From: a virus
Virus record (IMG/VR): IMGVR_UViG_3300046836_000305
Coordinates: 1 to 20,528 of that record
Length of the DNA: 20,528 nucleotides
Direction: 5' to 3' (one strand)
Below are positions 9,208-16,194 of the stretch, piece after piece. A program made the translations under genes and the position numbers. Within the stretch, counting starts at the first letter, position 1. Each line of letters begins with the position of its first letter. Under the pieces are notes generated by a model. That model saw only the letters and a program-made list of their open reading frames with translations. It was not told the origin of the DNA and ran no database searches.

Positions 9208-11637
9208 CTAGAATCCGCCTTGGAAGGCGAACGCGGAGACACTATTCGTCCCGCGATCCTTCAACGCTTCGCGCTTCATCATCTCGTACAGGTCGCGCGC
9301 GCTTTTCGCGTCGGCGGCCTGGATCGTCACATTTCCGTGAACGTGGATGTCACTGCTGCCGTAGCCGATCGGCGCGTTGTAGGGGCCTGTCGTACCACCG
9401 ACGCCGGCCGGTGCGCTCGGCGGATTGCTCGGCGAGACACCGGGGATCGGAATGGGCGCAGCGGCGTAGCGGTAGGATTCGATCTTGAAGAACTGCGGAA
9501 TGTTCGAGATCGAAGCTGTGACTGCGTTGACAGTCTTTGACAGCGCATCGAGTGAGGCGGCTGAGTTGTCGACCGATTTCTTGTGGTGGTCGAACAGTCC
9601 GCCGATCAGACCGCCGAGTGCCGCGCCGGCGATGCCACCGATCACTGGAACGATCGCGTTGCCGAAGGCTGCACCAATGCCCGAACCGGCCATCTTTCCA
9701 ACAGCCGCCCCGAGTGCTGCGGACCCGCCCGCGGCGCCGATGCTTGCGCCAATCTGTGATCCCTGTCCATGCACAAAGGCCTGAGCCAAGCCTGAGAGCG
9801 CGAATGTCAGCGAGTTGGCGATGCCGAGCAGGCCAGCGTCAAGGCCGTCTTTCACACGCGCGAGCGTCGCGTTCACGTTCTGCAATTCGGGCGGGATCGC
9901 CGCCACCTCTGGCGCCTTGAAGACCACGCCGCCGAGTTGCGTGATCTGGCCAGGCCCCTGCACAGGAATCGGGCCGAGCCCCGGCGCTGCTGCTTGTACG
10001 CTTGTGAGCGGAATCGAGCCAGGCGCTGCGAGGTTGGCGAGCTGCGAGAGCGAGCCGAGAATGTCGTTCTTGATGGTCTGCGCGATCTGCTCGAGCTTGA
10101 TCCGCATCGGGTCCATCGCGTTCGGAATCTTCGCGAGGACGTTCTGCACTTCGATCAATGCGGCCGTCAGCGAGGCGCCGAATCCCGCGATCGGCCCGAA
10201 CTTCTCTTTCATCAGGTCGAATGCGGCAATGACATTCTGGGCGTGTTCGGTCGCATGCTTGAGCATGTCGGCCAGAGACACGCCCTCGCCACCGCTGTCG
10301 CCAGCAGCCACACCCGTCTGCTTGAGCTTCGCCGTAATCGCGTCGACGTTCGTCTGAATGACGCGCGCCTGCTCGGCAAGGTTGGAGTTCTGCGCGTTCA
10401 GCGACTCCATTGCATCGGCGGGGCGGGCGAACTTCGTTGCATCAAAATTCGTGATCTGGCTCGCGACCCGCGCCTGCTGCGCTCGAATGCTGGCGAGCAA
10501 TGCCTGGTCGGCCGCCTGCTGTTGTTTGAGCTGAGCAACGGTGAGGTTGTTCAGCGATTGCGTAAAGAGGTCGAGGTCGGCGGCCGTCTGCTTTGCGCCC
10601 TCGCCCTGCTTGGCGAACGCATAGATCACCGCGGCAATCGGCGCGCTCAGAAGGGCCAGAATGGGGCCGAGGCCCGTGACGATCTTCGCAATACCGGAGA
10701 GAGCTGAACCGGCGCCGAGAATCGCAAGTGCCCTATTTAGCAGGATGATCTTCTCGGTCAGCGAGCCAACGATGAAGAGCGCGGGGCCAATCGCCGCGAC
10801 GATCGCACCAACGCCAATCACTGCGGACTTCGTTCCCGAAGGCAGATCGTTGAGCGACTTGAGGAACCCCGTCAGCGCGTCGGCCGCTCGCGCGAGCGTT
10901 GGCGCGAGCAGATTGCCGAAGGCGACTGCCGCTTCCTCGGACGCTTGCTTGAGCCGTGCTAGGGCGTTCGCATTATCGCCGATCGTCCGCGCCGCTTCGC
11001 CTTGCTGCTGTTTCGTGCGGTCGAGAATGAGCGACCACGTTGCCTGTACCGTCGCTGCGTGTGACAGGTTATCGCCAACCTGCGCCAGCCCGAGCGAGTA
11101 GGCGCGGTTCTTGACATCCGTCTCATTGATCGCGATGCCGAACTCACGAAGCCCACGCGTCTGTCCCGCCAACGCCTGCTGAAGGGACGATTGCGCTACG
11201 TCAATCGAGACGTGATTGAATGCCGCGAGGTCGCCGGCCAGCTTCGTCACCGCTTGCGTCATCGACGTCGCTTGCGGGATACCGAGCCCAATCGACCGGA
11301 AGAACACGTCCGTGTTCGACGTGAGGTTTCGCAGTTCCTCGCTCGTCGCGGGGACGGTTTTCATCAGGTTCGTGATGAACCCTTCCATGTTCGCGGCCGA
11401 CGTGCCGAACGTGTGCTCGAGCTTCTTGATCGAGGCTTCGTTGTCTGCGGCCAGCTTCGCCGTGACACCCGCAAGCGCCACAAAAGGCAGGGTGACGGCC
11501 GCGGTCAGCGACTCGCCGAGCGATTGGAGCCGCGCACCGGTCTTGACCATCTGGGACTCAGCATCGCTCATGCCCTTCTTGAACGATGACAGATCCGCGG
11601 CAATGCGGACGACGAGTGACGCGGTGGTCTGTGCCAC
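9208..11637 (-). CDS. Tail tape measure protein
   Basis: This 809-residue protein is the longest in the window and sets tail length; at about 0.15 nm per residue it would give a tail near 120 nm. The start is GTG at 11637 with a good GAGGAA ribosome-binding site that overlaps the stop of the chaperone gene. The N-terminus (ADLSSFKKGMSDAESQM...GARLQSLGESLTAA) is the usual helical tape measure opening. Hydrophobic segments lie at about 42-60, 270-292, 303-341 and a Gly/Ala-rich one at 626-682 (GIAGAALGGLIGGLF), typical of domains that reach the host membrane. Helical stretches fill the centre. The end (HVHGNVTIQAADAKSARDLY, 765-784) is a common C-terminal motif of this family. No lysozyme or peptidase domain is visible. 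Confidence 0.93.
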   Translation of the reverse strand: MAQTTASLVVRIAADLSSFKKGMSDAESQMVKTGARLQSLGESLTAAVTLPFVALAGVTAKLAADNEASIKKLEHTFGTSAANMEGFITNLMKTVPATSEELRNLTSNTDVFFRSIGLGIPQATSMTQAVTKLAGDLAAFNHVSIDVAQSSLQQALAGQTRGLREFGIAINETDVKNRAYSLGLAQVGDNLSHAATVQATWSLILDRTKQQQGEAARTIGDNANALARLKQASEEAAVAFGNLLAPTLARAADALTGFLKSLNDLPSGTKSAVIGVGAIVAAIGPALFIVGSLTEKIILLNRALAILGAGSALSGIAKIVTGLGPILALLSAPIAAVIYAFAKQGEGAKQTAADLDLFTQSLNNLTVAQLKQQQAADQALLASIRAQQARVASQITNFDATKFARPADAMESLNAQNSNLAEQARVIQTNVDAITAKLKQTGVAAGDSGGEGVSLADMLKHATEHAQNVIAAFDLMKEKFGPIAGFGASLTAALIEVQNVLAKIPNAMDPMRIKLEQIAQTIKNDILGSLSQLANLAAPGSIPLTSVQAAAPGLGPIPVQGPGQITQLGGVVFKAPEVAAIPPELQNVNATLARVKDGLDAGLLGIANSLTFALSGLAQAFVHGQGSQIGASIGAAGGSAALGAAVGKMAGSGIGAAFGNAIVPVIGGIAGAALGGLIGGLFDHHKKSVDNSAASLDALSKTVNAVTASISNIPQFFKIESYRYAAAPIPIPGVSPSNPPSAPAGVGGTTGPYNAPIGYGSSDIHVHGNVTIQAADAKSARDLYEMMKREALKDRGTNSVSAFAFQGGF

Positions 11638-11640
11638 TAG

Positions 11641-12173
11641 CTATTCCTCATCCGTGGCCGCTTCGACCAGTTGCTCGTCCGCCTCGCGCAATCGCCGCTC
11701 CCGCATATCGTAGGCGTGCCAGGTGGTCAGTTCTTCCGAGTCCATCTCGACCCCGAGACGGCCGACGGTCATGTGCAACCGTTCGGCGAGCCGGTACAGG
11801 CTCACGCACTCGGGGTCGTCGTCGAGTTTTTTTCCGCGTCTACCACGGCCTGCGCCTCGAGCTTGTTCAGCTTCATGGCGGGCGCAGTGAGCTCGTCTAG
11901 GTCCCCGGCCGGCCACTGCATCAGCGCGTCACGGTCGGACGACTTGAAGCACATCTGTTTTGTTTCGGGGTCGCGCACCGTGGCGATCGCGATGGCGGCC
12001 TGCAGTGCGGCGGGATCGTCTTCCCCCGCGTCGTTCTTGGCCGCCTTGAGCAGGTCGCGCCGCTGCGCGACGCTCATCATCACGATCTCGACGGGGTTCT
12101 CGGGCAGGAAGCTGGGCGTAACCGTGATCGTTCTCGCCTCTCTCGAGGCGAGTAGTGCATCTCTGAGGGACAT
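11641..12173 (-). CDS. Tail assembly chaperone GT fusion, made by predicted -1 frameshift
   Basis: The G-type protein starting at 12173 and the overlapping -1 frame that ends at 11641 can be joined at an A AAA AAC heptamer, giving a fusion of 177 residues. Upstream of the site the fusion equals the shorter protein up to residue 116; downstream it continues LDDDPECVSLYRLAERLHMT and ends ...EAATDEE. The downstream frame has no convincing start of its own: upstream of the slip it reads arginine/glycine-rich shadow sequence (GRGPRRAHCARHE). It lies immediately before the tape measure gene, exactly where lambda-like phages make G and GT to chaperone the tape measure during tail assembly. The frameshift itself is inferred from sequence. 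Confidence 0.87.
11802..12173 (-). CDS. Tail assembly chaperone, G-type (unshifted product)
   Basis: A 123-residue protein from the ATG at 12173, starting four bases after the stop of the previous gene. It opens MSLRDALLASREARTITVTP and has VEIVMMSVAQRRDLLKAAK and VRDPETKQMCFKSSDRDALM, in keeping with phage tail assembly chaperones, which recall gpG or TAC families by size and location rather than strong sequence identity. The protein ends NSTTTPSA shortly after the slippery heptamer, so most ribosomes would stop here and a minority would make the longer fusion. It acts in the cytoplasm with the tape measure protein and is not expected in the virion. Confidence is high for the gene, and good for the role. 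Confidence 0.85.
   Translation of the reverse strand: MSLRDALLASREARTITVTPSFLPENPVEIVMMSVAQRRDLLKAAKNDAGEDDPAALQAAIAIATVRDPETKQMCFKSSDRDALMQWPAGDLDELTAPAMKLNKLEAQAVVDAEKNSTTTPSA
11826..11832 (-). promoter_or_regulatory. Slippery heptamer A AAA AAC for -1 ribosomal frameshifting
   Basis: On the minus strand the zero-frame codons GAA AAA AAC (codons 114-116 of the G-type gene) contain the canonical X XXY YYZ heptamer A AAA AAC. A -1 slip re-pairs both tRNAs on AAA AAA and enters the frame that ends at 11641. The GC-rich sequence just downstream (CGACGACGACCCCGAG) could stall the ribosome, but I did not identify a definite pseudoknot. Confidence 0.85.
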
Positions 12174-12177
12174 GGGG

Positions 12178-12813
12178 TTAGATGAGTGAGATGACGCGGC
12201 TGTCCGCGTCCGACGTGCCGACGAAGGTCAAGTCCTCGCCGATGATTGAACGGGTCGCGATGCTGATGGCCTGTTTCGTCGGGCGCGCCCAGAACGCAAG
12301 ATCCGCCGCGGCGCCGCTGTCGTGGAAAATCTGGATGACGAGCACCGTGCCGTTCAAAATGGCGGCCTTGAACTGCGCGCTGTACGTGGACTCCCAATTG
12401 CGGCCGAGCGATGCCGAGATGCTCTTGATGCCTGGGATCGACTCGTCATACCCGCCCGAGTCGAACGTCGTATCATCAAGCAGCTCGTTGCCGTGCGTAT
12501 ATGTGATCGACTTCGATTTCAGGATCGTCGTCATCGGGAGATAGGTCCCCGAGATCGTGACCGTGCGCGCCGTTGTTGCCGTGAATGTGACGACACCGGT
12601 TAGGCGGTTGATGACGTACGGGTCCGCCACCGGGTCTACCGCGACGCCCCCGTCTTTCACGGTGATCGTGGCCGTCGGTGACCAGACCTGTTTCGCGGTA
12701 TTCGTGATCTGGTATTTCTTGTTTGCGGTGAGTGCGGTCACCGCTTCATCAGTAAAGGCCGTGGGCGTGCCCCCGATCTTCACGAGGCCGAGTCGTCCAG
12801 CAGTCGAAGGCAT
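12178..12813 (-). CDS. Tail tube-like protein (major tail protein candidate)
   Basis: A 211-residue protein from the ATG at 12813, with AGGAA upstream overlapping the stop of the previous gene. It starts MPSTAGRLGLVKIGG, echoing the STAGR start of the two preceding genes. Residues 30-95 are beta-rich (WSPTATITVKDGGVAV). The section from about 97 (KSKSITYTHGNELLDDTTFD) through GGYDESIPGIKSISASLGRN, then a variable part and GEDLTFVGTSDADSRVISL, follows the general plan of siphovirus tail tube proteins: N-terminal tag loop, IpGik-type strand, and a repeated strand pair. It directly precedes the chaperone genes, the classical place for the major tail protein. Whether this or the two upstream paralogues builds the tube cannot be decided from sequence alone. 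Confidence 0.72.
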   Translation of the reverse strand: MPSTAGRLGLVKIGGTPTAFTDEAVTALTANKKYQITNTAKQVWSPTATITVKDGGVAVDPVADPYVINRLTGVVTFTATTARTVTISGTYLPMTTILKSKSITYTHGNELLDDTTFDSGGYDESIPGIKSISASLGRNWESTYSAQFKAAILNGTVLVIQIFHDSGAAADLAFWARPTKQAISIATRSIIGEDLTFVGTSDADSRVISLI

Positions 12814-12822
12814 GGCGTGTTC

Positions 12823-13263
12823 CTACGGGAGAGTGATCGTGCCGAACGTGAACGTGCCCGTCGTTTTCCCGTCGATCGAGATATTCGTTTTGTCGCGCAC
12901 CTTGGTATCGATCGCGATCTTCGTCAGGTTGACGGCGCCCTTCCAGCCTTTCTTCGTGACTGCGGAGCTGTCGAAGATCACGGCGACGTATCCACTCGGG
13001 GACGTCGCTTCGACCTCTGCCTCGATCATGGCGTCTTGGCCATTGGTGTCACCCACCCGCCGTCCGCCGCTCATCGTGAACGGCAACGAGCGAATGCCGG
13101 TGATTGACTGCTCGTACGCGACGCCAAACTCGTCGTCGGCAATCTCGGGCGACTCGGGCCCGCCGCTTATTGTGTCGATGCCGGCGACGAGGTGATACGA
13201 ACTCGCGCCGTTCGTGGCGGACCAATAGACCTGACACTTCCGGCCCGCGGTTGAGGAGGACAT
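12823..13263 (-). CDS. Tail-tube-type protein, paralogue B of a tandem pair
   Basis: A 146-residue protein from the ATG at 13263 with a strong AAGGAGA ribosome-binding site that overlaps the stop of the upstream gene. It is a clear duplicate of its neighbour: shared blocks include GGPESPEI, DDEFGV, YEQSITGI, NGQDA/TGQDA and a nearly identical end (RDKTNISIDGKTTG...FTFG.ITLP), about two thirds identical by eye. It is rich in beta strands and Gly/Ser/Thr with no enzyme motif. The position between the tail terminator and the chaperones is that of tail tube genes, so it is a tail tube subunit or related virion protein. The strong ribosome-binding site suggests abundant synthesis. Confidence 0.7.
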   Translation of the reverse strand: MSSSTAGRKCQVYWSATNGASSYHLVAGIDTISGGPESPEIADDEFGVAYEQSITGIRSLPFTMSGGRRVGDTNGQDAMIEAEVEATSPSGYVAVIFDSSAVTKKGWKGAVNLTKIAIDTKVRDKTNISIDGKTTGTFTFGTITLP

Positions 13264-13272
13264 GCTGTCTCC

Positions 13273-13716
13273 TTACGTGACCGGCAGCGTGATCGCGCCG
13301 AAGGTGAAGGCGCCCGTCGTCTTGCCGTCGATCGATATGTTCGTTTTGTCGCGGGTCTTGGTGTCGAACGAGACCTTCGTGATGTTCACCGCGCCCAGCC
13401 AGCCGTTGCCGGGTGACGTGCCGTCGAACAACACCGCGATGTATCCGTTCGGCGATGTGCCGGCGAGTTGCGCCGCGACGATGGCGTCCTGGCCCGTCGA
13501 ATCGCTCCCGATGCGAGCGCCGCCGGACAACGAGAAGGGCAGGCCGATGATGCCCGTAATGGACTGTTCGTATTCGACGCCGAACTCGTCATCGTTGATT
13601 TCCGGCGACTCCGGTCCACCGGTCACCGTATCGATACCGGCAATCAGGTTGTATGAGTCGTCGGTATTGTCGGCGGACCAGTAGACTTTCGCCTTTCTGC
13701 CAGCGGTCGATGACAT
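13273..13716 (-). CDS. Tail-tube-type protein, paralogue A of a tandem pair
   Basis: A 147-residue protein from the ATG at 13716 (MSSTAGRKAKVYWSADN). GAGAA about 7 bases upstream is a weak ribosome-binding site, and a stable hairpin lies about 28 bases upstream. It shares most of its length with the next gene, including GGPESPEINDDEFGVEYEQS and the end RDKTNISIDGKTTGAFTFG, with small indels and different loops (for example GTSPGN against SSAVTKK). Such divergence with a conserved core suggests duplication followed by specialisation. It is the first gene of the tail module after the tail terminator protein, where a tail tube gene is expected. It could also be a tube-related decoration. Confidence 0.7.
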   Translation of the reverse strand: MSSTAGRKAKVYWSADNTDDSYNLIAGIDTVTGGPESPEINDDEFGVEYEQSITGIIGLPFSLSGGARIGSDSTGQDAIVAAQLAGTSPNGYIAVLFDGTSPGNGWLGAVNITKVSFDTKTRDKTNISIDGKTTGAFTFGAITLPVT

Positions 13717-15078: not shown

Positions 15079-16194
15079 TCAGGCCGTCCGCTTCCACATA
15101 TAGACGGCGATGTACGGCTGGACGACGCTCGACGCGCTGCCGGTAAAGGCCGGGGCAGAGTTGGTGCCCGTCGGCGTAACCGTATGCGTGTGACCTGAGA
15201 GCGCCGAGCCCGTGAACGTCGGCGCTGAGATCGTGCCCGCTGGCGTGAGCGTGTGCGTGTGCGTGCTCAACGCCGAACCGGTGAACGTCGGCGTCGACAC
15301 CGTGCCGGTTGCCGTCGTGACCGGCGTGACGCCGCTCGAGGTGTTGCCGGTCAGCAGTTTGGCGGGCGAAGTCGTCGATGCCGCAGCGACCGCGTTGCCG
15401 GTGAACGTCGGCTGCGAAATCGTGCCCGCTGGCGTCCCACCACTCACCGCGCTCGTCGTGCCTTGCGATCCCGTGAAGGTTGGCGCCGAGACTGTACCGG
15501 CGGGCGTCCCGCCACTCACCGATGACGTCGTGTTGCTGTTGCCGGTGAACGTCGGAGCAGCCACGGAACCCGTCGCGGCAACCGTCTTGGCGCCGCCCGT
15601 CTTTTCACTGGTGTCGAAGTCGGCGTCTCCTCCGTCCACGCCAACGAGCACACGACCGGCGCCGAAGGCTGACCATGTGCCGCGGCCGAGCAGCGTCGCC
15701 GGGTTCGTGCTCAGCGTGGAAATGTAGACTGCGCCAACCGGATAGAGCGTGTCGATCACTGTGGCGATCGTCGGGGCGTCGGCGCCCGCGGGACCAGTAT
15801 CGCCCGTGTCTCCCTTCACGCCCTGAGTGCCCTGAATGCCCTGCGGACCAGTAGCGCCGTCAGCACCGGCGGCTCCCGTATCCCCGGTGTCACCCTTCGC
15901 ACCCTGAACTCCTTGCGGACCCGCGGCGCCATCAGCTCCGGCAGGACCAGTGTCGCCCGTGTCGCCCTTATCTCCCTTCGGACCTGCCGGACCCGAACCG
16001 CCTCCTTGACCATCGACTGAGACGTATGGCAAATCGTTCCACGCAGAAACGCCATCGCCTACCTTCATCTGACAACTATCGACTTCGGCGCCGACTTCTC
16101 CCCGAAGCAAAATCGGATTAGCCGCACTCCATGCCGCGGCCGATCCGCGGCTCATTTGGAACCGTTTTCGGCGAACTAGATCGTCGAGCGGCAT
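15079..16194 (-). CDS. Collagen-like fibre protein (head or tail fibre)
   Basis: A 371-residue protein from the ATG at 16194 with GGGAAG about 6-10 bases upstream. Residues 7-58 ([44 protein letters not shown]) resemble an Mtd-N-like attachment domain. Residues 68-139 are 24 uninterrupted G-X-Y collagen triplets. Residues 147-200 ([20 protein letters not shown], then [20 protein letters not shown]) match the phage tail-collagen / gp10 C-terminal module. Residues 213-352 contain about six APTFTG-type repeats, with two HTHT motifs (312-315, 335-338) that could bind metal as in trimeric fibres. It ends [13 protein letters not shown], the usual terminus. Placed between connector genes, it may form capsid fibres instead of tail fibres. 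Confidence 0.87.
15139..15558 (-). repeat. APTFTG repeats in the fibre C-terminal half
   Basis: About six imperfect protein repeats each end in (A/Q/T)PTFTG or APAFTG, with spacers such as GGTPAGT and HTHT(L/V)TP. The underlying DNA repeats (gtgaacgtcgg and close variants on the plus strand) recur, so slippage or recombination could change copy number. Confidence 0.8.
15778..15993 (-). repeat. Collagen triplet repeat (24 G-X-Y units)
   Basis: 24 consecutive glycine triplets with a higher-order repeat around GDTGDTG(P/A)AGADGA, seen three times in full or in part. Triple-helical trimerisation is expected. The repeated DNA makes length variation likely. Confidence 0.9.

Follow-up and report, generated by a model that had tools for sequence, protein, structure and literature searches.

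The slip site of the lambda tail chaperone gene is G_GGA_AAG, a heptamer of the GGGAAAG type. The lambda G/GT type is described as widely conserved in the accessible part of PMC5009743, where UUU_Ynn is also given as prone to +1 shifting in bacteria, the archaeal virus HSTV-2 as very likely +1, and a fungal gene as shifting by -1 in most species and by +1 in some. Among SEA-PHAGES genomes, 2397 joined tail chaperones are annotated, according to the accessible part of PMC10885494. For an HK97-like chaperone cluster, frameshifting of 6 and 7% was measured for two genes, and A_AAA_AAC is counted among the consensus heptamers (accessible part of PMC3711429).

We analysed a stretch of viral DNA of 20,528 nucleotides (the window; IMG/VR record IMGVR_UViG_3300046836_000305), for which a preliminary description had proposed a programmed -1 frameshift between two tail chaperone frames. 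The window very probably holds the tail chaperone locus of a long-tailed phage, in which a minority -1 slip on A_AAA_AAC gives a G-T fusion.

Anatomy of the frame junction

The whole feature is carried by the minus strand, which the preliminary description had not specified. The features of the locus are as follows.

11802 to 12173, minus strand: tail assembly chaperone ORF (G-like), zero frame, 123 aa, ATG start; PHROG 344, fold match to 2OB9
11826 to 11832, minus strand: slippery heptamer A_AAA_AAC in zero-frame register; from sequence, chance estimate and retention in relatives
11641 to 11826, minus strand: -1 frame extension, T-like domain, 61 codons plus TAG; PHROG 337, alignment with 9 relatives, some of them -1 and some +1
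9208 to 11637, minus strand: tape measure protein of 809 aa that starts with GTG; matched by PHROG tape measure families (E 3.6e-15 for the best one with a name)
12178 to 13716 (13716-13273, 13263-12823 and 12813-12178), minus strand: tail-tube-like genes upstream of the chaperone; weakly matched by PHROG families of major tail proteins
11803 to 11805, minus strand: GTG of the -1 frame that overlaps the stop of the zero frame (GTGA, 11805-11802); from sequence, possible reinitiation start
11748 to 11818, minus strand: predicted RNA stem-branch structure with an outer 10-bp stem (11818-11809 / 11757-11748); possible stimulator

The A7 run occupies 11833-11827 and is followed by C at 11826, so that the zero-frame codons read GAA (11834-11832), AAA and AAC (11828-11826), as the preliminary description had stated. 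The heptamer A AAA AAC (11832-11826) thus stands in the X_XXY_YYZ register required for a simultaneous -1 slip. The zero frame ends at TGA 11804-11802, and in the -1 frame 61 open codons run from CTC (11826-11824) to TAG (11643-11641), which leaves a gap of 3 bases before the tape measure GTG (11637). The predicted fusion has 116 + 61 = 177 residues, joined as EKN/LDDD, and the unshifted product 123. All numbers given earlier were correct, including the two product lengths and the distance from the extension to the tape measure start, and the observation stands.

The chaperone gene lies between the tail tube gene(s), assigned by weak PHROG matches, and the tape measure gene; this order and the identity of the chaperone agree with the lambda G/GT type proposed earlier. 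Two of the tube-like genes (13273-13716 and 12823-13263, minus strand) form a tandem pair, 68% identical over 145 aa, and the relatives L009 and L010 have two and one such genes, respectively. Another ORF (15079-16194, minus strand) is collagen-like, repeat-rich and fibre-like, and by eye sits between head-tail and connector genes.

The upstream protein matched PHROG 344, tail assembly chaperone (E 1.2e-11), and the extension weakly matched PHROG 337, tail protein (E 4.1e-4). No Pfam model scored above cut-off for either the chaperone or the extension of the window, and the NCBIfam search gave nothing meaningful, with no model matched by the extension. The chaperone of relative L045 reached PF06222 (Phage_TAC_1). 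For PF06223 (Phage_tail_T, lambda T), the extension of the window had no match, and relative P0004 scored 13.7 bits (E 0.087), below the cut-off of 25.9. An AlphaFold model of the G part was built with 14 aligned sequences (pLDDT 84.6, pTM 0.72). Foldseek ranked both chains of 2OB9, the tail assembly chaperone of HK97, first for this model (E 3.2e-4 and 1.0e-3, probability 1.00), followed by YqbN (E 0.057), and nothing else fell below E 0.6. The reading of the upstream frame as a tail chaperone was therefore borne out by both PHROG 344 and the predicted 2OB9 fold, and that of the downstream frame as T-like by PHROG 337, weakly, and by homology to the extensions of relatives. By analogy, we infer that the extension acts like T though it is outside Pfam family PF06223.

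We infer the events in cells, the frequency of slipping and the part played by each product as follows. Most ribosomes would read the G-like chaperone (123 aa) to its stop. At A_AAA_AAC a minority would shift by -1 as tRNA-Lys and tRNA-Asn pair anew with AAA AAA, and the product of these ribosomes would be the G-T fusion of 177 aa. If the analogy to lambda holds, the G part would bind the tape measure protein while the T part would recruit the tail tube protein, so that the short and the long product would be needed in a set ratio.

Outside the junction, neither strand of the window, which has 63% GC, holds 7 or more A in a row. With codon shuffles of 21 window ORFs, in-frame AAAAAAC was expected 0.0008 times in 41 codons, and any X_XXY_YYZ with Y = A/T 0.036 times. 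Among lysine codons AAA is in the minority (45 vs 148 AAG). Two other IMG/VR records carry the same 601 bases without a difference, which makes a misassembled A run unlikely. A GGGAAAG also occurs in frame in the tail terminator gene (13873-13867, minus strand), with the -1 frame open to 13589. We took it as chance and rejected it as a slip site, as 3 Y = A/T heptamers in 5840 codons is about the shuffling rate (0.00087 per codon), and GGGAAAG was absent from the forward strand of L009 and L010.

A 10-bp stem starts 7 nt after the heptamer (z -3.87, 200 shuffles), the spacing usual for -1 stimulators. This stem may raise the slip efficiency in this phage. In a scan of 12170-11510, z was -3.2 and -2.7 at the stem, but another place in the gene, at 12080, folds as strongly (z -3.29), so the stem does not stand out alone. 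When 13 sequences were folded downstream of the slip site, z was -2.5 or lower in 5 and not in the other 8: the window, L012 and L099 gave -3.1 or lower, L096 and L101 about -2.6, and the rest from -1.17 to +0.99. On this basis we did not take the structure as a stimulator consistently shared by the relatives; the near copies are identical and so hold no covarying positions. No internal Shine-Dalgarno stimulator of the dnaX kind was seen by eye in the window. Scans of 11400-12400 gave no promoter-like site and one terminator-like site, on the opposite strand and at about chance level. A perfect 8-bp hairpin with a GAGA loop was found at about 12152-12133 (minus strand), in the first codons of the chaperone gene, where L091 and L010 fold less strongly.

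Slip signals in relatives and other readings of the locus

The tblastn search of the window's chaperone in the phage collection gave no match, the genome collection search gave 3 loci, and named relatives were reached via L008 and L010. The chaperones of L008/L009/L090/L091 and of L010/L011/L074/L075 are 33% and 30% identical to that of the window, respectively. The 12-base GGAAAAAAACTC is kept at the same junction in both groups, and the extensions of the window and the relatives align from KKL onward. Between the extensions of L091 and L010 there were 21, 17 and 33 differences at codon positions 1, 2 and 3 (66 codons), a substitution pattern that looks as for a protein under selection. The counts for the window against each of these two relatives (26, 32 and 32 in 56 codons; 29, 29 and 32 in 57 codons) were near even and too diverged to tell. 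Frameshift joins are annotated in the named phages Kovu, Dubu, Ottawa, Jflix2 and phiSASD1. The preliminary description expected a gene finder to report two overlapping genes, and this was seen in the relatives Mae-JY09 and REQ1. In the annotation of the window, the two overlapping ORFs should be treated as one frameshifted gene.

We surveyed 259 fetched loci with profile searches for both domains. The loci had been picked by protein similarity and not by heptamer, and are no random sample of phages. Both domains were found in 201 loci; those with T without G (54) or G without T (4) were dropped from the cluster counts. In none of the 201 did G and T share a frame: the two frames always differed and overlapped, with T in -1 in 103 loci and in +1 in 98. 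Clustered at 80% identity, each direction separately, the loci gave 62 clusters, 45 of the -1 and 17 of the +1 direction.

A canonical heptamer was present in the overlap of 40 of the 45 -1 clusters, taking the commonest site per cluster (GGGAAAA in 18, AAAAAAC in 15, GGGAAAC in 4, AAAAAAA, AAAAAAG and GGGAAAG in 1 each, none in 5). Among the five clusters without a heptamer, one has a member, L097, with GGGTTTC. With one representative per cluster and expected rates taken from the upstream part of the same genes, there were 40 heptamers in 1038 overlap codons of the -1 clusters against 3.0 expected. UUU_C stood at the junction in 16 of the 17 +1 clusters, or 16 times in 405 codons where 0.21 were expected. 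At distances of up to 75 nt from the stop, UUU_C was found in none of the 45 -1 representatives and a heptamer in one of the 17 +1 representatives (L159, with GGGTTTC upstream of its UUU_C). The signals nearly exclude one another. Alignment with related phages, as suggested earlier, thus found the heptamer kept at the frame junction. Relatives lacking it had been named as evidence against the frameshift: some do lack one, but those in the -1 frame mostly have it and the +1 clusters carry UUU_C. The base triplet after the heptamer is TCC in 10 of 16 AAAAAAC junctions (TCG in the window), which may be a protein constraint or a 3' context effect. The actinobacteriophage -1 relatives L097, L100, L102, L103 and L104 mostly have NNU_UUC (GGGTTTC, GGATTTC, ATCTTTC) replacing the canonical heptamer.

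The T-like domain could also be made as a separate protein of 54 aa by termination-coupled reinitiation, with a stop at TGA (11804-11802) and a restart at GTG (11805-11803). The window has the GTGA overlap that this needs and L091 has an ATGA overlap, though its ATG sits within the conserved T core. However, L010 has no start at that place, no Shine-Dalgarno-like stretch was seen by eye before the GTG, and reinitiation leaves unexplained why the heptamer is kept in register in so many clusters. The T core was recognised in 17 of 22 -1 representatives, the core pattern failing in the other 5, window included, and in the stretch looked at no ATG, GTG or TTG stood ahead of the core in any of the 17; among +1 representatives a start codon was there in 5 of 12 and missing in 7. 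A conserved start for the downstream frame had been named as an argument against frameshifting; the recognised -1 cores have none, but the window itself has its GTG, at which reinitiation is possible. On this evidence we regard reinitiation as very unlikely.

That the fusion is read from edited mRNA, with a base gained through slippage of RNA polymerase on the A run, is extremely improbable. The window has a run of 7 A, but A runs of 6-7 are thought too short for efficient polymerase slippage, and among the 16 AAAAAAC junctions the run is 6 in 5, 7 in 11 and never longer. GGGAAAA and GGGAAAC, without a long A run, occupy the same place in 22 other clusters. A -1 frame that is open by chance, with an incidental heptamer, is scarcely credible and already contradicted by the different overlapping frames in every two-domain locus and by the conserved extension core, although the extension has only 61 codons and no Pfam or NCBIfam match.

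Against a minority -1 slip on A_AAA_AAC stand the 5 of 45 -1 clusters without a canonical heptamer, a stem that is not common to the relatives, a G part that in the window is below the Pfam cut-off, the GTGA overlap that allows reinitiation, and the slip site itself, as A_AAA_AAC is regarded as weaker than A_AAA_AAG in E. coli.

Probable opposite slip directions among relatives

The +1 clusters were missed in the preliminary description and go beyond it. In distant relatives, a one-base forward slip seems to lead to the same fusion. The +1 reading assumes a +1 over a -2 slip, and UUU_C fits +1. The +1 relatives include L014, L015, L016, L018, L022, L023, L159 and L109, and their UUU_C is mostly CGA_UUU_CCU. 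In the Microcystis phage Mae-JY09 (L109), the site is CGA_UUU_CCU and the T domain lies in +1, the two parts being annotated as two hypothetical proteins; the likely +1 frameshift site is at 1807-1815.

Direction is interleaved on the tree of the chaperones and has therefore probably changed several times. A careful 33-row tree required at least 3 direction changes, 3 of them forced by starred branches, and a quick 62-row tree with the chaperone junction columns cut gave 6 changes, 2 of them forced. In both trees the branch of the window is long and its precise position uncertain; L108 was left out of the 33-row tree, and a second analysis places it as -1 AAAAAAC. The chaperones of L127 (-1, with GGGGGAA) and L159 (+1, with CGA_UUU_CCU) are 69% identical and have opposite frames.

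These results make it likely that in one homologous family the slip direction has switched repeatedly between -1 (X_XXY_YYZ) and +1 (UUU_C, mostly UUU_CCN), and that hardly any locus has both signals. If true, the fusion is under selection, and the slip mechanism and frame are free to turn over. A well-sampled family in which the same fusion is seemingly made by opposite slips would be a natural experiment on the origin and replacement of programmed frameshift sites, and the L127/L159 pair offers a direct case for reporter tests. In searches of a collection of open papers, to which the key papers on lambda tail frameshifting do not belong, we found no report of direction switching in this phage chaperone family, and the accessible part of PMC4351075 has nothing on it.

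Comparison with known systems

Judged from its sequence, the window is a genuine case of the lambda G/GT type, though an ordinary one. It differs from lambda in its heptamer, A_AAA_AAC against G_GGA_AAG, and has little sequence similarity to it, but shares the order of tube, chaperone and tape measure genes, the -1 slip near the chaperone gene end, predicted in the window, and the added T domain (accessible part of PMC5009743). The predicted fold of its G part matches that of HK97 gp13 (PDB 2OB9; E 3.2e-4), whereas identity in the structural alignment is only 16-17%. Kovu, Ottawa, Dubu, phiSASD1 and Jflix2 have a homologous chaperone, a -1 overlap before the tape measure gene and annotated joins, but use GGGAAAA, GGGAAAC or GGGTTTC in place of the AAAAAAC of the window. 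The +1 relatives, with CGA_UUU_CCU and variants, have the motif type of the UUU_Y +1 sites (bacterial UUU_Ynn and influenza A UCC_UUU_CGU; accessible part of PMC5009743). This is not the mechanism of the window itself, and in contrast to those systems the sites of the +1 relatives lie in phage tail chaperones.
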